From: Stutzerimonas stutzeri
Lineage (GTDB): Bacteria > Pseudomonadota > Gammaproteobacteria > Pseudomonadales > Pseudomonadaceae
Length of the DNA stretch: 64,000 bases
Assembly (NCBI RefSeq): GCF_024451105.1
Contig: NZ_JANGEY010000002.1
Coordinates: 62,001-126,000 of the forward strand
Direction: 5' to 3'
In this document: positions 14,303-23,093 of the stretch, piece after piece
How the letters are laid out: every line of letters starts with the position of its first letter
How positions within the stretch are numbered: position 1 is the first letter of the stretch
Notes under the pieces: model-generated
What the model was told of the DNA's origin: nothing
The model's input: the letters and a program-made list of their open reading frames with translations, nothing else
The model's database searches: none
Position numbers and translations under genes: made by a program

Positions 14303-14309
14303 CCCGTGC

Positions 14310-14334
14310 GCGGGCGCCCGCAACGGGCGCCCGC
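14310..14334 (+). terminator. hairpin after the ATP-grasp operon
   Basis: An 11-bp perfect stem GCGGGCGCCCG (14310-14320) pairs with 14324-14334 around a CAA loop, 8 bp after the ligase stop. No T-run follows, so it is terminator-like only. Confidence 0.5.
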
Positions 14335-14386
14335 CTCCGCCCCGCCCTGCGTTAGAATCCCGGCTTGCACTCGTTCGAGCCCCGCC

Positions 14387-15736
14387 ATGTCCACCTGCGT
14401 CATCCATCCCCTGCCCTACCACGCCGATCCGCGCCCGCGCTTCGCCCACCTGCACGCCGCCCCCGGCGCCTGCCTGCTCGACGGCGGCCGCCCACGGGCC
14501 GAGCGCGGGCGCTTCGACCTGTTCAGCGCCTGGCCGGAGCAGACGCTCAGGCCCGAGCCCGGCGAGGACGGTCGCAGCTTCCTCGCCCGCTGCCGCGCGG
14601 CGCTGGCCCGGCTGGGCCGCGCCGAAGCGCCGGCCGGCGTCGAGCTGCCGTTCACCGGCGGCCTGCTCGGTTACCTGGGCTACGACTTCGGCCGCCGCCT
14701 GGAACGCCTGCCCGAGCAGGCCGTCGACGACCTCGCCCTGCCCGACGCGGCCTTCGGCCTGTACGCCTGGGCACAGGTCACCGACCACCAGCGGCAGACC
14801 TCGCAGCTGGTGTTCCACCCGAGCCTGGCGGCCGAACGGCGCGCCGCGCTGATCGCCCTGTTCGCGAACGAGGCAGCCGCACCGGCCGGCGACGAGCTCC
14901 GCCTGCTGGCGCCGTTCGCCGCCGACCTCGACGCCGCCCGGTACCGCGCCGCCATCGAGCGCATCCAGGCCTACATCCGCGCCGGCGACTGCTACCAGGT
15001 CAACTTCGCCCAGCGCTTCCAGGCGCCCTGCCAGGGCGAACCATGGAGCGCCTACACCCGGCTGCGCGAGGCCTGTCCGACGCCGTTCGCCGGCTACCTG
15101 GCACTGGACGACGGCGCCATCCTCAGCCTGTCCCCCGAGCGCTTCCTCAGCGTGCACCAGGGCCGGGTCGAGACCCGGCCGATCAAGGGTACCCGCCCGC
15201 GCGGCGCCACGCCGGACGCCGACCGCGCCTTCGCCGAGGAGCTGGCCGCCAGCGCCAAGGACCGCGCCGAAAACCTGATGATCGTCGACCTGCTGCGCAA
15301 CGACCTCGGCCGCAGCTGCCGCATCGGCTCGGTGCGCGTGCCTGAACTGTTCGCCCTGGAAAGCTATCCCAATGTCCACCATCTGGTGAGCAGCGTGACC
15401 GGCGAACTGGCCGCGGGCCTCGACGCCTTCGACCTGCTGGCCGGCAGCTTCCCCGGCGGCTCGATCACCGGCGCGCCGAAGATCCGCGCCATGCAGATCA
15501 TCGATGAGCTGGAACCGACCCGCCGCGCCATCTATTGCGGCTCGCTGCTGTATGTCGACTGCCGCGGCGAGATGGACAGCTCGATCTGCATCCGCACCGT
15601 GCTGGTGCGCAATGGCCGCGCCAGCTGCTGGGGCGGCGGCGGCATCGTCATGGACTCCGACTGGCAGGCCGAGTACGAGGAGTCGAAGACCAAGGTGCGC
15701 GTGCTGCTGCAGACCCTGGAAGCCACCCTCGACTGA
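14387..15736 (+). CDS. pabB: aminodeoxychorismate synthase component I
   Basis: Converts chorismate and ammonia or glutamine nitrogen to 4-amino-4-deoxychorismate for folate synthesis. The 449-aa protein has the anthranilate-synthase component I fold. Conserved chorismate-binding segments include ETRPIKGTRPRG, RAENLMIVDLLRNDLGR, GSFPGGSITGAPKIRAMQII and CGGGIVMDSD-like GGGGIVMDSDW near the C-terminus. The lysine in IKGT is typical of PabB and argues against anthranilate synthase. The start at 14387 follows a TAGAAT hexamer. In Pseudomonas aeruginosa pabB lies beside thrH; here four SMC-cassette genes separate them. Confidence 0.93.
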   Translation: MSTCVIHPLPYHADPRPRFAHLHAAPGACLLDGGRPRAERGRFDLFSAWPEQTLRPEPGEDGRSFLARCRAALARLGRAEAPAGVELPFTGGLLGYLGYDFGRRLERLPEQAVDDLALPDAAFGLYAWAQVTDHQRQTSQLVFHPSLAAERRAALIALFANEAAAPAGDELRLLAPFAADLDAARYRAAIERIQAYIRAGDCYQVNFAQRFQAPCQGEPWSAYTRLREACPTPFAGYLALDDGAILSLSPERFLSVHQGRVETRPIKGTRPRGATPDADRAFAEELAASAKDRAENLMIVDLLRNDLGRSCRIGSVRVPELFALESYPNVHHLVSSVTGELAAGLDAFDLLAGSFPGGSITGAPKIRAMQIIDELEPTRRAIYCGSLLYVDCRGEMDSSICIRTVLVRNGRASCWGGGGIVMDSDWQAEYEESKTKVRVLLQTLEATLD

Positions 15737-15835: not shown

Positions 15836-18800
15836 ATGCCCAGCCTCAACCGCATCATCCTGATCAACACCCACCTCGCGGGCGTGGTCGAGCTGGTGGT
15901 CGACGACCACACCAACATCTGCGGCACCAACGCCTCCGGCAAGACCACCCTGCAGCGCCTGGTGCCGGTGTTCTACGGCGAATACCCGAGCCGCGTGGTG
16001 CCGGCCACCCGCGACAGCTTCGAGCGCTGGTACCTGCCGACCGAGCAGAGCTTCATCGTCTACGAATACCAGCGCATGGACGGCGAGGCCTGCCAGACCA
16101 TCCTCGCCGCCAGCAGCGACGGCCGCGGCGTCGACTACCGCCTGGCGCACAAGGGCTTCGAGCTGGACGACTACATCAGGAGCCGCCAGGGCGATGTCGT
16201 GGTCTGCCGCAGCATGGCCGAGCTGGGCCGCCACTTCCGCCAGAGCGGGGTGGCGGTCAGCAACCAGCTGAACACCCGCCAGTACCGCGCGATCATCCAG
16301 AACGACCGCAGCCTGCTCGCCGCCGACAGCCAGCGCGGCGAACTGCGCCAGCTGGCCCGGCAGTTCTCGCTGTGCGCCGGCGAGCACAGCCTGCGCCACA
16401 TCGAGAAGCTGGTGCGCGCCGTGCACTCGCGCGAGGGCAAGATGGAGACGGTCAAGTCGATGGTCGCCGCCATCCTCGAGGAGGACGGCGTGGCGCCGCC
16501 GACCACCGGCCTCAGCCCGCAGAAGGTCGAGGACTGGATCCGCGACAGCCAGCTGATCCAGGGCTTCGCCGCCCTGCGCCCGCAGTTCGCCCGCCTGGAG
16601 CACGACTTCGCCGAGCTGCAGGGCAACGAGGCGCGCCTGGCCGGCCTGCTGCAGGCCTTCCAGACCGACCAGCCGCTGCTGTTCGCCCGCCAGGAGCAGC
16701 TGCGCCTCGCCCTCGAGCAGAGCGGCTTCGAACTCAAGCTGCTGGAAGACGACTGGAGGGACCAGCGCGACGCCCTCAGCCTCGAGCTGTCGCAGGTCCA
16801 GGCGCGCATCGAGAGTGCGGAAACCCAGCTGCAGCACATCGAGGAGCAGTACCAGCAATACCTCGACGCCGACATCGACCAGGCCAAGGCCGACCTGGAG
16901 AAGCTCGACGGCTGGCGCCTGGAGCTGGACAACCACAAGGAACGCCTGCGCCTGCTCACCGAGCAGCACGCCGACGTGCAGAACGCCTACCTGGAGCGCA
17001 AGCAGATCGTCCAGGAGCGCCAGCAGGAAGCCGTCGACCGCCTGCACGAGCAGGAAGGCCGGGTGCGCGACGAACTGGCCGAGCGCAACCAGCACAGGCA
17101 CGAGGCCCTCGCCCAGCTCGACCGCGCCTTCGCCAACCGCCGCCAGGAGGCGGAAAGCGCCAGCCGCGAGCGCCGCCACGCCCTCGAACTGGAGAAGAGC
17201 CGCCAGGAACAGCTGATCGCCAGCTTCGCCTACAGCGAGGAGGAAACGCTGAGCCTGGAGGTCTTCGACCGCCGCCTGGAGGAGGCCGACGAGCAGCGCG
17301 ACGGCGCCGCCCAGCAGCTCGACGCCTTGCAGCAGCAGGAGCGCCTGCGGCTGCGCCAGCGCGAGGACGCCGCCCAGCAGCTCGCCCAGGCCAGCCGCCG
17401 GGTCGGCGAACGCCAGCGCGAGCTGGACGACGCCGAGCGCCTGCTCTACCCCGGCCAGCACAGCCTGCTGGAATTCCTGCGCCGCGAGCAGCCGGGCTGG
17501 GAGCAGAGCCTCGGCAAGGTGATCGAGCCGAGCCTGCTGCAGCGCAGCGACCTCAAGCCGGCCCTCAGCGCGGCGCCGGCCGACAGCCTGTACGGCGTGC
17601 AGCTCGACCTCGCCGCACTGGCCACGCCGGAGCACGCCGCCGGCGAGGCGGAACTGCGCCACCGCGTGCAGCTGGCCGGCGACAACCTGCAGGACGCCCG
17701 CAACCAGCAGGAGCAGGTGGAACAGCAGCTGGGCGAGCACGGCGCCGCGCTGGAGGAGCTGAACACCCGCCTGGTGGTGGCGCGTACCGCCCTGCAGACC
17801 GCCAAGGACAACCGCCAGCGCCTCAAGGAGGAGCGCGCCGCGCTCAAGGAACGCCTCGACGCCGCCCTCGCCGAGCGCCGCCAGGCCGCGCGCCAGCAGC
17901 TCGCCGGCCTGGACGCCGCCCTCGCCCAGCTCAAGCTGGAGCACGCCAGCCTCGTCGAGGAGCTGGACAGCCAGCACCGCGAGGCGCGCCTGGACACCAG
18001 CGCGCACTGGCAGCAGGTGATCGGCGACCTGGAGCAGCGCCTGGCCCAGCTGCGCGGCCAGCTGGAGGAGCAGCGCGCCCAGGGCAAGGCCGAGCTGGCC
18101 GCCTGCGAGAGCTGGTACCGCAACGAACTGAAGTCGCGCGGCGTCGACGAGGCGCAGCTGATCCAGCTGAAGAGCGGCATCCGCGAGCGCGAGCAGCGCA
18201 TCCGCGACACCGAGGCGCGCCGCGCCGAGGTGCACCGCTTTGATGAGTGGTACGCGGTCACCTGGCTCAAGCGCAAGCCGCAGCTGCAGGAGGATCTGGT
18301 CGAGCGCAAGCGCGAGGCCACCGACCTCAGGCTGCGCCTGGACACCGCCACCCTGGCCTTCAAGAGCCGCCGTGACGCCCTCGAACAGCAGCGCCGCCAG
18401 GCCCTGCAGGCCCAGGGCCAGGTGTCCGAGCAGCTCGACAGCCTCAAGGCCCTGCTCAAGCGCCTCGGCGAGCTCAAGCTGCCGCGCGACGGCCAGACGC
18501 CGGCCGGCGAGCTGGACGAGCGCCTGCGCCTGGCCCAGGAGCTGCTGCACGGCCGCGAGAACCTGCTCGCCGCCATCAAGCAGCACGTCGAGCGCTTCGA
18601 CAGCCTGATCGCCGGCAAGGCCGGCTCCAGCCTGACCGAGACCTGGGAGCGCAGCCGCGAGGAATGCAGCCTGGTCAGCGAGCGCGGCGGGCCGGCCTTC
18701 GACTACCGCCGCCTGGTGCCGGCGCTGGCCCAGCTGCTCAACGTGCTGGTGCCGCAGAGCATCACCGCGCTGCGCGAGCAGGGGCGGATCTTCGGCAAGG

Positions 18801-19510
18801 ACCTGTTCGACTACTTCGCCGTGCTCGCCGACATCGACCAGCGCATCGCCAGCCAGAGCGCGCGGATCACCCGCGAGGTCGGCGAGGAACTGTTCCTCGA
18901 CGGCGTGTCCAACTCGGCGGTGACCATCCGCTCGAAGATCACCGAACTGGAGTTCTGGCCGGAGCTGCGCGCCTTCGTCGCCGCCTACCGCGAATGGGAG
19001 GACAGCGGCTTCAGTGAGCTGCCCGGCGAGGACTACACCGGCAGCATGCGCCGCGCCCTCGAGGTGCTCGGCCGCTCGGCGCTGACCAGCGGCATCGCCG
19101 GCCTCTTGGAGATCGAGCTGCGCCTGCGCGAGGGCAACAGCGACCTGGTGATCCGCACCGACCGCCAGCTCAACGAGTCGTCCAGCCACGGCATGGCCTA
19201 CCTGATCCTCTGCAAGTTCCTGCTGGCCTTCACCCGCCTGCTGCGCGGCCGCGCCCCGGCGACCATCCACTGGCCGATCGACGAGCTGGGCACCCTGCAC
19301 CACAGCAACGTGAAGAAGATCTTCGACGCCTGCGCCAGCAACGCCATCCGCATCCTCGGCGCCTTCCCCAACCCGGACTCCGAGGTGCTGGCGCTGTTCA
19401 AGAACCGCTACATCGTCGACAAGCAGAGCCGCCGGCTGCAGGTGGTCAAGCCGCGCCTGGACGTGATCGGCGAACGCCTGAAAGCCCGCCTGAGCGAGGA
19501 GACCGTCTGA
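15836..19510 (+). CDS. jetC: SMC-like ATPase of a Wadjet/MksB-type complex (JetC-like)
   Basis: A 1,224-aa SMC-type protein with split ATPase ends. The Walker A motif GTNASGKTT is at residues 30-38. A signature-like NESSSHGMAYL lies at about 1111-1121 and Walker B ATIHWPIDELG at about 1141-1151. The roughly 750 residues between are mostly heptad-rich, Gln/Glu/Arg-laden coiled coil (for example QLRGQLEEQRAQGKAEL), with a hinge-like break near the middle. This is the MukB/MksB/JetC branch; the companions downstream (JetB-, JetA- and JetD-like) make a Wadjet-type complex the best reading. Such complexes extrude DNA loops and the JetD nuclease cuts small circular plasmids. An AAAGGA site precedes the ATG. 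It opens the cassette and overlaps jetB (TGATG). Confidence 0.85.
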   Translation: MPSLNRIILINTHLAGVVELVVDDHTNICGTNASGKTTLQRLVPVFYGEYPSRVVPATRDSFERWYLPTEQSFIVYEYQRMDGEACQTILAASSDGRGVDYRLAHKGFELDDYIRSRQGDVVVCRSMAELGRHFRQSGVAVSNQLNTRQYRAIIQNDRSLLAADSQRGELRQLARQFSLCAGEHSLRHIEKLVRAVHSREGKMETVKSMVAAILEEDGVAPPTTGLSPQKVEDWIRDSQLIQGFAALRPQFARLEHDFAELQGNEARLAGLLQAFQTDQPLLFARQEQLRLALEQSGFELKLLEDDWRDQRDALSLELSQVQARIESAETQLQHIEEQYQQYLDADIDQAKADLEKLDGWRLELDNHKERLRLLTEQHADVQNAYLERKQIVQERQQEAVDRLHEQEGRVRDELAERNQHRHEALAQLDRAFANRRQEAESASRERRHALELEKSRQEQLIASFAYSEEETLSLEVFDRRLEEADEQRDGAAQQLDALQQQERLRLRQREDAAQQLAQASRRVGERQRELDDAERLLYPGQHSLLEFLRREQPGWEQSLGKVIEPSLLQRSDLKPALSAAPADSLYGVQLDLAALATPEHAAGEAELRHRVQLAGDNLQDARNQQEQVEQQLGEHGAALEELNTRLVVARTALQTAKDNRQRLKEERAALKERLDAALAERRQAARQQLAGLDAALAQLKLEHASLVEELDSQHREARLDTSAHWQQVIGDLEQRLAQLRGQLEEQRAQGKAELAACESWYRNELKSRGVDEAQLIQLKSGIREREQRIRDTEARRAEVHRFDEWYAVTWLKRKPQLQEDLVERKREATDLRLRLDTATLAFKSRRDALEQQRRQALQAQGQVSEQLDSLKALLKRLGELKLPRDGQTPAGELDERLRLAQELLHGRENLLAAIKQHVERFDSLIAGKAGSSLTETWERSREECSLVSERGGPAFDYRRLVPALAQLLNVLVPQSITALREQGRIFGKDLFDYFAVLADIDQRIASQSARITREVGEELFLDGVSNSAVTIRSKITELEFWPELRAFVAAYREWEDSGFSELPGEDYTGSMRRALEVLGRSALTSGIAGLLEIELRLREGNSDLVIRTDRQLNESSSHGMAYLILCKFLLAFTRLLRGRAPATIHWPIDELGTLHHSNVKKIFDACASNAIRILGAFPNPDSEVLALFKNRYIVDKQSRRLQVVKPRLDVIGERLKARLSEETV

Positions 19511-20151
19511 TGCTGTCGAACAAGGGCAAGGTCATCGAGCGCCTGCTGCAGGGCGCCTTCATCTGCCGCACCAGCGACGAGGAAGGCTGGCGCTTTTTGA
19601 AGAATCCGGCCAACCGCGAGCAGGTCGACGACTACCTGGCCACCCTCAACCGCAGCGTGGCCACGGTCGGCGCCGGCAGCGAGGCCGAGGTGTTCTACTG
19701 CGCCTATCGCCAGCTCGGCGAAGCCGAACGGCGGGTGGTCGGCCAGCAGTTCCGCGACGTGTGCAACGCCCTCACCCCGCTGGTCGAGTGGCTGCTGCTG
19801 GTCCAGGAAGCCGGCGCCCAGGATGCGCCGCTCACCGAGGGCAGTCCGATCCGCCTCAACGAGCTGCAGAGCATCGTCGAGGACACCCCGGCATTCCGCG
19901 AGCAGCTGGCGCGCATCAGCCACTACCGGCTGTTCGGCTCGACCAGCGCCAGCGTCGACGCGCAGATCAAGCAGGTGTTCAAGCGCCTGTGCGAACTCGG
20001 CTACCTGCTGCGCCCCAACCCGGAGAAGCAGATCTACCTCGGCACCGGCAAGCTGGACTACCTGTACGAGGTGATCCGCTTCATCGACGAGGCCGAAGGC
20101 CTCTCGCTCGAGGAGCGCGCCGAGCTGGCCAGCCAGGGGAGCCTGCTGTGA
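19510..20151 (+). CDS. jetB: KITE-type accessory subunit (JetB/MksE-like)
   Basis: A 213-aa protein with the size and position of the MukE/MksE/JetB subunits, which are tandem winged-helix (KITE) proteins that bind the kleisin. Typical features are the segments FICRTSDEEGWRFLKNPANREQVDDYLATLNR and VFKRLCELGYLLRPNPEKQIYLGTGKLDYLYEVIRFI (each cited here for position: about residues 18-45 and 157-190). It overlaps the end of jetC (TGATG) and the start of jetA (GTGA), consistent with fixed-ratio, coupled translation. Assignment rests on context plus fold-like pattern. Confidence 0.78.
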   Translation: MLSNKGKVIERLLQGAFICRTSDEEGWRFLKNPANREQVDDYLATLNRSVATVGAGSEAEVFYCAYRQLGEAERRVVGQQFRDVCNALTPLVEWLLLVQEAGAQDAPLTEGSPIRLNELQSIVEDTPAFREQLARISHYRLFGSTSASVDAQIKQVFKRLCELGYLLRPNPEKQIYLGTGKLDYLYEVIRFIDEAEGLSLEERAELASQGSLL

Positions 20152-21365
20152 GCGGCAACCTGCACCAGGCCGGCGTGCGCTTCCTGCGCCAGCTGGGCCG
20201 CCACGCCGAGACCATCATGGACGCCTACCTGGCCGGCGCGGTCGGCGACGACGCCCTCGAGCCCGGCGTGCAGGAGCGCCTGGTCAAGGACGGCGTGCTC
20301 TATCGCCCGGAGCCGGGCGCCGACCTGCACCTGCGCAGGGTGGTGCGCGCGCTGCTCGAGGAGGCGCTCAGGGACGACCGCAATCGACAGATCGACGCCA
20401 ACACCGGCAGCACCCTGGCCACCTTCAAGACCCTTGCCGCCCACTACAAGGAGGCGCGCCACCAGGGCGACTTCGCCGCCGCCGACGCCTACCTGGCCGA
20501 CCTGCGCGAGCACGTCTACAGCTTCTGCGAGGGCCTCGGCCACAGCGTGCGGGTGCTGTGGGGGCGGATCAACAACGAGTTCGGCTACGTCGGCAGCCTC
20601 GGCGCCAAGATCCGCGAGAACGAGCTGGCCCAGACCCAGGTCAGCGAGCTGCTGGCCGGCCTCGAACTGATCGACTTCAGCGAACTGGCGGAAACCGCCG
20701 GCGAACTGCGCGAGCTGCGCCGCCTGCTGGTCACCCGCCTGCAGCGCCAGGTCAGCGACTGCTGCCAGGAGCTCGGCGTGGTGCAGGGCCGCCTGCTCGA
20801 ACTGCTCGGCCGCTTCCGCAAGATCCAGGGCCGCACCCGCCTGCTGCGCGGCTGGCTGCTGCACGCCGAACAGCAGCCCGACTACCGCCCGGGCAGCCAC
20901 ACCGCGCGGCCCGAGATGCCGCAGCTGCTCAACCTCGCCGAGGCACTGATCGCCCCTGCGGCGGCGAACCTCCACGACAGCGGCCAGGAAGCCGAGCTGC
21001 TCGCCCTCGCCGCGCAGATCCGCGCCCAGCGCGAGGAACGCCCGGCCACGCCGCCGGCCGAGGCCGGCGAGCTGACCCTGGGCGAGATGGAGAGCTTCGA
21101 GGTGCAGCCCAACCCGATCCAGCTCGCCGTGCAGGAGTACCTCTGCGCGGTGATCGAGAGCGGCCAGCCGGTGTCGGCGCTGACCTGGTGGCGCGAGCGC
21201 GAGCTGCCCTGGGATCCGGAGACCTGGCTGTACCAGGTGATCGGCGGCTACGAGGCGCTGCCCGACGAACAGCGCGCCTGCTTCCAGCTCGACCCCGACG
21301 GCGAGCCGCACCCGGTGTTTTCCGGCAACTTCATCGTGCGGGACCTGTCGCTGTGGCTGGCCTGA
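20148..21365 (+). CDS. jetA: kleisin-type subunit (JetA/MksF-like)
   Basis: A 405-aa protein starting at GTG 20148, which overlaps the jetB stop by 4 bp (GTGA). It is largely helical, with a helix-rich N-terminal half (LRRVVRALLEEALRDDRN, then TGSTLATFKTLAAHYKEARHQGD) and a C-terminal winged-helix-like segment around WWRERELPWDPETWLYQVI. This layout suits the kleisin MksF/JetA that bridges the SMC heads. The identification depends on the neighbouring SMC and KITE genes; the sequence alone has no diagnostic motif. Usual cassettes place this gene first, here it is third. Confidence 0.72.
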   Translation: MSGNLHQAGVRFLRQLGRHAETIMDAYLAGAVGDDALEPGVQERLVKDGVLYRPEPGADLHLRRVVRALLEEALRDDRNRQIDANTGSTLATFKTLAAHYKEARHQGDFAAADAYLADLREHVYSFCEGLGHSVRVLWGRINNEFGYVGSLGAKIRENELAQTQVSELLAGLELIDFSELAETAGELRELRRLLVTRLQRQVSDCCQELGVVQGRLLELLGRFRKIQGRTRLLRGWLLHAEQQPDYRPGSHTARPEMPQLLNLAEALIAPAAANLHDSGQEAELLALAAQIRAQREERPATPPAEAGELTLGEMESFEVQPNPIQLAVQEYLCAVIESGQPVSALTWWRERELPWDPETWLYQVIGGYEALPDEQRACFQLDPDGEPHPVFSGNFIVRDLSLWLA

Positions 21366-22183
21366 GCCGCAGCCACCACAACGCCGTGCACCGGCTGCTG
21401 CGCGAGCGTCTGGAGCGGGTGGAGTTCAACCGCACCTGGCAGCAGCTGTACGCCCATTTCGAGCTGGGCCGCCCCATGGGCAAATGGCTGCACTTCGACG
21501 CCGAGACACGCCGTCTGCTGCAGCGCATGGCAGGGGACGAGTGGGGCTTCGATCCGCTGGCGGGCGTACCGGACGGCAGCCGCCGCGAGGTGGCCGCCCA
21601 CGCGGTCGACGAGAAGATCGCCCGGCGCCGCCCCGACGACGATTTCGTGCTGGTCAAGGGTGCCCTGCCCGCGCCGCTGCCAGCCCTCGCCCGCGGCCTC
21701 AGCCTGCGCGTGGCGCTGCAGCAGCTGGACGCCGCCGCCATCGCCCGGGTGCTGCTGATCGAGAACCTCGACAGCTTCGACGACTGGGAGGACTACCCGG
21801 CACCGCCCGAACTGGCCGGCAGCCTGGCCGTCTACCGCGGCCATCGCGGCCTGGCCCGCGGCGCCCGCCAGCTGCTGGAACGGCTGCCGGCAGCCACGCC
21901 GGTGGTGGTCTTCGCCGACTTCGATCCGGCCGGCCTGGCCATCGCCGCCAGCCTGCCGCGCGCCGACGCCCTGCTGCTGCCGGAACTGGACGAGACGCTG
22001 CTGGCCAGCGGTAGCCGCGAGCACTTCGACCGCCAGTTCCGCCAGGCCGCCCAGCTGGACAGCCTGGAACTGGGCGGCTGGCAAGCCGTGTGGGACGAGC
22101 TGCAGCGGCACCGGGTCAGCCTCAAGCAGCAGCACATGCTGGCCTTCGGCTGCCGGCTGCGCCTGGTGCCGCGCCGCGGCTGA
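21353..22183 (+). CDS. jetD: Toprim-domain nuclease subunit of the cassette (JetD/MksG-like, short)
   Basis: A 276-aa protein from a GTG at 21353 that overlaps jetA by 13 bp. The C-terminal half has Toprim hallmarks: a glutamate in LLIENLDSF (Glu137) and the acidic pair in VVVFADFDPAGLAIA (Asp189 and Asp191). In Wadjet systems this DUF2220-type Toprim subunit cleaves plasmid DNA. JetD proteins are usually about 370-400 aa with an N-terminal DUF3322 arm; this one is about 100 residues shorter, so the arm is reduced or of a different type. A GTG at 21390 is an alternative start. A hairpin terminator follows. Confidence 0.75.
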   Translation: MAGLSRSHHNAVHRLLRERLERVEFNRTWQQLYAHFELGRPMGKWLHFDAETRRLLQRMAGDEWGFDPLAGVPDGSRREVAAHAVDEKIARRRPDDDFVLVKGALPAPLPALARGLSLRVALQQLDAAAIARVLLIENLDSFDDWEDYPAPPELAGSLAVYRGHRGLARGARQLLERLPAATPVVVFADFDPAGLAIAASLPRADALLLPELDETLLASGSREHFDRQFRQAAQLDSLELGGWQAVWDELQRHRVSLKQQHMLAFGCRLRLVPRRG

Positions 22184-22200: not shown

Positions 22201-22230
22201 GCCGAGGCCCGCACGATGGCGGGCCTCGGT
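22201..22230. terminator. bidirectional hairpin between jetD and thrH
   Basis: GCCGAGGCCCGC (22201-22212) pairs with 22219-22230 (one G-T pair) around a 6-nt loop. It lies between convergent jetD and thrH and can serve both. Confidence 0.65.
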
Positions 22231-22253: not shown

Positions 22254-22871
22254 TTACAGGCTCAGCGGGCGAATCGACGCCTTGAGGAATTCCTGCTTGA
22301 GGTCTTCGTAGGTGTGCACCGCCGGGAACTGCGGGAACTCGCGGATCACGTTGTCCGGCGCATGGAACAGGATGCCGGCGTGCGCCTCGCTGAGCATGGT
22401 GGTGTCGTTGTAGGAGTCGCCGGCGGCGATCACCCGGTAGTACAGGCTCTTCAGGGCGATCACCGACTGGCGCTTGGGATCCTTCTGGCGCAGCTGGTAG
22501 TCCACCACGCGATCGGTCTCGTCGGTGATCAGCTTGTGGCACAGCAGGGTCGGGAAGCCGAGCTGGCGCATCAGCGGCTGGGAGAACTCGTAGAAGGTGT
22601 CGGAGAGGATCACCACCTGGAAGCGCTCGCGCAGCCAGTCGACGAACTCCACCGCGCCGTCCAGCGGCTTGAGGGTGGCGATCACTTCCTGGATGTCGCG
22701 CAGCTTCAGGCCGTGCTCGTCGAGGATGCGCAGACGCTGCTTCATCAGCACGTCGTAGTCGGGAATGTCGCGGGTAGTCGCCTTGAGCGCGTCGATTCCG
22801 GTTTTTTCGGCGAAGGCGATCCAGATTTCCGGGACCAGTACGCCCTCGAGATCAAGGCAGGCGATTTCCAC
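22254..22871 (-). CDS. thrH: phosphoserine phosphatase / homoserine phosphotransferase ThrH
   Basis: A HAD-superfamily enzyme that removes phosphate from phosphoserine and can pass it to homoserine. From GTG 22871 the protein is 205 aa, the length known for ThrH. The catalytic aspartates sit in IACLDLEGVLVPEIW, the threonine/serine motif is LSDTFYEFS and the C-terminal metal motif is AAGDSYNDTTML. The GTG start is preferred over an upstream ATG at 22997 because the family begins with EIACLDLEG and GAGGAG lies about 8 bases before the GTG. It diverges from cysH. Confidence 0.94.
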   Translation of the reverse strand: MEIACLDLEGVLVPEIWIAFAEKTGIDALKATTRDIPDYDVLMKQRLRILDEHGLKLRDIQEVIATLKPLDGAVEFVDWLRERFQVVILSDTFYEFSQPLMRQLGFPTLLCHKLITDETDRVVDYQLRQKDPKRQSVIALKSLYYRVIAAGDSYNDTTMLSEAHAGILFHAPDNVIREFPQFPAVHTYEDLKQEFLKASIRPLSL

Positions 22872-23093
22872 AGCAGACTCCTCGATGAACAGACAGAAAT
22901 TGAGGCGGCACTCTAGCGAGTTGGCCCGCGGGGCGCAACGCGGCGCAGGGAAGCGCCTGACAGAAAAGCGCCCGAACCGGCGCCACATATTCCACATTGT
23001 TAGGTGAATAGCGGCATTTGGTTATTTCAATGCATAAACAGCTTGCTGGTACCATTTCCGCATCTGCCGAACCCATGACAAGCGGAAGCCCTG

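Follow-up and report, generated by a model that had tools for sequence, protein, structure and literature searches.

The question raised by this stretch of Stutzerimonas stutzeri DNA (assembly GCF_024451105.1, contig NZ_JANGEY010000002.1) is whether a four-gene cassette built around a structural maintenance of chromosomes (SMC) ATPase is a plasmid-restriction system or a complex with a broader role in the cell. Coordinates are those of the window, that is, the whole stretch of 64,000 nucleotides analysed, unless another locus is named. On the forward strand, the cassette encodes an SMC-type ATPase (15836-19510; 1224 aa; PF12128/DUF3584), an MksE-like KITE subunit (19510-20151; 213 aa), a kleisin-like subunit without a sequence family (20148-21365; 405 aa) and a Toprim protein with a GTG start (21353-22183; 276 aa; DUF7281), the last being a putative nuclease. 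It is probable, in our judgement, that the cassette is an SMC complex of a distinct lineage within the MukBEF/Wadjet group, equipped with an optional Toprim nuclease of the Topo VI-A/JetD type, and that its motor still serves the cell when unarmed. A first-pass annotation had proposed a separate subtype of plasmid-restriction condensin; the family is indeed distinct, but the proposal is incomplete, given that the Toprim is missing from half of the chromosomal relatives, in which the trio is nonetheless strongly conserved. Since the SMC is, in addition, near-universal in Shewanella, calling the family a defence system would be too simple.

The genes, their motifs, their order and the fold class were established directly. 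The four overlapping open reading frames have the sizes first reported, with overlaps of 1, 4 and 13 bp. The SMC matched PF12128 with 1198 bits (residues 8-1195 on profile positions 1-1190) and carries a Walker A motif (GTNASGKTT), a signature-like motif (NESSSHG) and a Walker B motif (WPIDE), which are conserved in its relatives; by pattern, 88 of 89 chromosomal SMCs have these motifs, as does the window copy. The Walker A and B head and the long coiled coil of an SMC from the broad MukBEF/Mks/Wadjet group are thus present. The Toprim protein matched PF23947 (DUF7281) with 181 bits. Given these matches, the first of them end to end, and the recurrence of the gene order in distant genomes, the cassette is not a chance arrangement. 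The window KITE protein scored below the cut-off with both MksE (PF21980, 20.5 bits) and DUF4194 (20.4 bits), but Pfam MksE was matched by 36 of 40 KITE proteins of the family (best 2.9e-8), and the plasmid and phage relatives scored above the MksE cut-off. By profile similarity, the cassette thus has the KITE subunit of MukE/MksE type that characterizes the broad group.

The protein in the kleisin position matched nothing in Pfam, PADLOC or NCBIfam. Its AlphaFold2 model (47 sequences; predicted local distance difference test score, pLDDT, 78; predicted template modelling score, pTM, 0.40) shows a helical domain at the N terminus, long helices and, at the C terminus, a winged-helix-like part (helix-plus-hairpin), and MukF occupied ranks 1-8 in both the Foldseek and the VIA searches, with a VIA Z score of 12.4 over 240 residues. 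The model gives good but not conclusive grounds for regarding the third protein as a MukF-like kleisin. For the Toprim (model pLDDT 90), residues 94-276 matched Topo VI-A (Z 12.3), Corynebacterium glutamicum MksG (11.6) and Pseudomonas aeruginosa JetD (9.9). Residues E137, N138, D189 and D191 (the last two forming a DxD motif) were invariant in 52 Toprims, comprising 40 chromosomal proteins, the window copy included, and 12 from mobile elements; the Topo VI-A/JetD-fold Toprim with an acidic triad (E137, D189 and D191) that is expected of Wadjet is therefore present. All four subunit assignments of the first-pass annotation were supported by profile and fold searches, that of the kleisin by fold only.

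A scan of 84,980 species yielded 383 relatives, from which the 80 best, together with the window's family, made up the set of loci. At every gene-spanning locus among the 80 best, the SMC gene is followed by the KITE gene and then by the kleisin gene, all on one strand. This arrangement, with the Toprim gene at its end, is shared by 11 plasmids of 110-925 kb in which the Toprim residues were verified; a twelfth plasmid (1168 kb) has four correspondingly arranged open reading frames, with the Toprim residues unchecked. The 12 plasmids, which represent the best plasmid matches rather than a random sample, as do the mobile-element loci in general, come from Pseudomonas, Vibrio, Acinetobacter, Marinobacter, Azospira and Aromatoleum. 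A complete SMC-KITE-kleisin-Toprim cassette, with all genes annotated as hypothetical, is also present in Dolichospermum phage Dfl-JY45 (PP438435.1:86907-93262, a 209 kb record taken as deposited); scans of IMG/VR for viral copies confirmed none. Because the mobile-element copies keep this order with an SMC identity to the window of only about 22-31%, the order must be old. The reversed C-B-A-D arrangement noticed at first is thus an ancient, conserved property of the family, distinct from the A-B-C-D order of JetABCD on another contig of the same genome. The SMC was present in 8 of 369 genomes of a same-class sample. On plasmids, the cassettes are annotated as an ATP-binding protein plus hypothetical proteins, and in one Vibrio campbellii plasmid copy (L192:4486-10928), the SMC and the kleisin are each split into two open reading frames, with KITE and Toprim intact.

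The Toprim is a variable part of the operon. In a FastTree tree of 94 single SMC proteins, 41 of the classifiable loci have it and 50 do not (at three others the contig stops short of its position), a ratio that should not be taken as a population frequency, since the loci were drawn from the 80 top-scoring relatives together with the family of the window. Well supported branches force at least 12 changes of state; whole clades lack the Toprim, and the deepest branches and mobile-element copies carry it. The Toprim-less trios are intact and under strong purifying selection. Walker A, signature-like and Walker B motifs were kept in all 51 Toprim-less SMCs examined, and omega between Toprim-less species was 0.01-0.06 for SMC, KITE and kleisin. 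An SMC of the family was found in 129 of 129 Shewanella genomes, with the close version in 122 and only a divergent version in the rest. In most cases, the close version occupies a single syntenic locus, where a Toprim may be present or absent. The same cation:dicarboxylate-type symporter follows the operon in 41 species, which belong to Shewanella or to Parashewanella, its sister genus; it lies 1.1-1.9 kb from the kleisin where the Toprim is present (16 species) and 0.3-0.7 kb from it where the Toprim is absent (25 species).

These data bear on the strongest of the alternatives, already weakened and in our view unlikely, namely that the cassette is a divergent Wadjet defence system whose Toprim-less copies are decaying remnants. 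The Toprim fold and catalytic residues are those of JetD/MksG, and the presence of the cassette on plasmids and in a phage record recalls conflict systems; however, the preserved motifs and low omega values of the Toprim-less copies, the existence of whole Toprim-less clades and the retention of the close SMC across most Shewanella species all argue against decay. Some Shewanella genomes (G577, G662) encode a second or sole divergent SMC of the family, scoring about 400-470 bits, which is perhaps a mobile version that coexists with the core copy or replaces it.

Slightly less likely still is the reading that the complex is a chromosomal condensin and the Toprim its topology partner, either topoisomerase-like or a non-cutting loader or unloader, and not a restriction nuclease, comparable to the pairing of MukB with Topo IV. 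Such a partner would agree with Topo VI-A being the nearest Toprim fold and with the cassette being a stable chromosomal resident. Nonetheless, no invariant tyrosine was found in the Toprim N-terminal domain, and JetD likewise lacks the topoisomerase tyrosine (PMC10586767). Nor does the Toprim behave like an indispensable partner: it has often been lost, and where it is retained, it changes several times more quickly than its SMC, with a dN 4-15 times higher in most pairs. The same four genes, moreover, occur on plasmids and in the phage record.

Evidence on the direction of change comes from two close relatives of the window copy, Pseudomonas oryzagri (97% SMC identity) and P. sagittaria, which carry a Toprim-less trio at the same site between pabB and thrH. 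In P. sagittaria (L156), a 16-codon in-frame scar frame (VAGLSARLRMVPRQPR, followed by a stop), whose start overlaps the kleisin stop, joins the initial five codons of the Toprim in frame to its last codons; P. oryzagri (L155) retains apparent degraded 5' Toprim remnants. Whole-genome searches of 27 Toprim-less entries (two assemblies entered twice) found no DUF7281 elsewhere, except for a weak JetD-like match in P. sagittaria, and recovered three Toprim-positive control genomes, so that no relocation of the Toprim within the searched genomes was found. No replacement effector was seen at the Toprim-less loci either, where the kleisin is directly followed by the symporter or thrH. In Shewanella, the Toprims group in a single clade (support 87). 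The Toprim tree is correlated with the SMC tree (r 0.78, against a maximum of 0.63 in 500 permutations), and the two have 19 of 34 splits in common. Repeated loss of the Toprim, with its scars, is therefore a better fit than regain, and the least probable alternative, repeated gain by an originally unarmed condensin, is in our view unlikely despite the scattered Toprim presence on the SMC tree, given the scar and apparent remnant at these two Pseudomonas loci, the single Shewanella clade, the correlated trees and the Toprim on the deepest branches and mobile-element copies. We consider the chances about even that this lineage is in the midst of a change of function, with an armed Wadjet-like complex losing its nuclease time and again at one fixed place in the chromosome, the trio being kept as a core chromosomal condensin throughout Shewanella and the plasmid and phage copies staying armed. 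In one Shewanella strain, KJ10-1 (L065:13349-15391), the kleisin is split and the Toprim interrupted, with SMC and KITE intact, an apparent decay of the armed form.

The site itself does not appear to attract defence genes. The cassette is flanked upstream by pabB (14306-15736, forward strand) and downstream by the convergent thrH (22254-22997, reverse strand), both names being those of the first-pass annotation, with orthologues in 146 and 123 of 148 family genomes, respectively. Insertion at a defence-prone site had been suggested; among 92 Pseudomonadaceae with both genes on one contig, however, the gap was below 0.6 kb in 77, 0.7-1.0 kb in 4 and 3.5 kb in one, and it held the cassette in 10, so that 81 of the 92 have the two genes less than 1.5 kb apart. 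Two genomes (G002 and G005) have an extra 14 kb between cassette and thrH (L198:1300-15700; L199:1040-15480), in which the proteins checked were TRAP and EamA transporters, regulators and enzymes of the ornithine cyclodeaminase and arylmalonate decarboxylase families, with no defence genes among them. The survey and this extra DNA, transport and metabolic where checked, speak against a horizontal insertion hot spot. In Azotobacter, the cassette is located elsewhere. The gap between Toprim and thrH contains an 11-bp perfect inverted repeat (22202-22229), a possible two-way terminator, which is also present in both Toprim-less relatives, P. oryzagri and P. sagittaria. A promoter and terminator scan made no call, the repeat having been missed because it lacks a T run.

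Returning to the optionally armed condensin that we favour, the window copy is most likely, by analogy with Wadjet, a nuclease-armed version, restricting circular DNA, of an old condensin that is also functional unarmed. We infer complex formation, loop extrusion, Toprim docking, DNA cleavage and plasmid restriction from that analogy. In this working model, kleisin and KITE would bridge two SMC dimers, which would extrude DNA loops; once a small circle had been fully extruded, the motors would stall and the docked Toprim would cut the circle. Where the Toprim gene is absent, the same motor would most likely be a further condensin, working alongside Smc-ScpAB: ScpA was found in 18 of 18 sampled carriers and a MukB-like protein in only 1 of 18. 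MksBEF is described as such a second condensin in P. aeruginosa (PMC7485682). The Toprim-less trio most likely organizes or segregates the chromosome, although it may instead provide nuclease-free silencing of foreign DNA.

Several points weigh against this picture. A profile comparison of the SMC with MukB and JetC aligned only the Walker B end, and hhalign comparisons with single MukF, MukE, JetA and JetB sequences found nothing, a result that is uninformative. The kleisin assignment depends on a model with the pTM given above, and the first unrelated helical protein reached a Z score of 10.9 against that model, compared with 12.4 for MukF. Finally, the chromosomal role of the unarmed forms is deduced from their conservation alone.

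A 2023 review (PMC10586767) treats it as an unsettled question whether MukBEF-type condensins arose from defence systems or the reverse, and a paper of 2025 (PMC7617805) goes no further than noting that several members of the Wadjet group, MukBEF included, lack a nuclease. The present family makes this question of descent directly testable with natural pairs, because sister species differ in the nuclease gene at one syntenic locus. It thus offers a system in which the interconversion of plasmid-defence and chromosome-folding machines can be tested, and it brings to light an SMC complex without a name that nearly all Shewanella carry and that defence-system annotation has missed. We found no literature naming DUF7281, and the titles and abstracts of papers mentioning DUF3584 concern no such complex.

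Among known systems, Wadjet type I/MksBEFG shares an operon of SMC, KITE, kleisin and Topo VI-A-like Toprim, with the Toprim last. It differs in its order, kleisin-KITE-SMC-Toprim instead of SMC-KITE-kleisin-Toprim (types II and III were not compared in this respect), in the longer N-terminal region of JetD, absent from the 276-aa Toprim of the cassette, and in that the Toprim of the cassette is optional at half of the chromosomal loci. The genome of the window supplies its own control, a canonical type I JetABCD on contig C15 (L030:1641-8332; order A-B-C-D), for which PADLOC gave 889, 385, 1606 and 632 bits for A, B, C and D; the window cassette reached only marginal scores (JetC1 13.9, JetB1 17.4 and JetD1 18.7 bits, with no JetA) and is therefore, unlike the C15 operon, not a recognized Wadjet. 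Two distinct SMC-Toprim systems thus coexist in this genome. Lamassu, which consists of LmuB and an LmuA effector without kleisin or KITE, has an SMC-like ATPase in common with the cassette, but the weak PADLOC match to LmuB is confined to the coiled coil (617-921), and the cassette has a KITE, a kleisin-like protein and a Toprim, which places it outside that system. Compared with solved structures at the sequence level, the SMC, KITE and kleisin gave no significant link.

The unarmed forms invite comparison with MukBEF and MksBEF. MukBEF has the kleisin fold that the model suggests for the third protein and, like the Toprim-less copies, is a nuclease-free complex of three subunits, but its SMC is longer (1486 aa, against 1224 in the cassette) and its gene order is reversed. 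The MukB N-terminal family (PF04310) matched nothing in the window genome, which sets the cassette apart from MukBEF in the strict sense, and was likewise unmatched in 17 of 18 cassette carriers; the carriers have ScpAB. With MksBEF, the cassette shares a KITE of the MksE family, frequent nuclease-free working and coexistence with Smc-ScpAB; the order of MksBEF is F-E-B (PMC10123090), the reverse of that in the cassette, whose SMC belongs to DUF3584 and whose kleisin has no sequence match. The cassette probably belongs to a distinct, unnamed branch of the MukBEF/Wadjet group, one that may already sit unlabelled among the Mks subfamilies of Petrushenko 2011 or the operons of PMC7617805.
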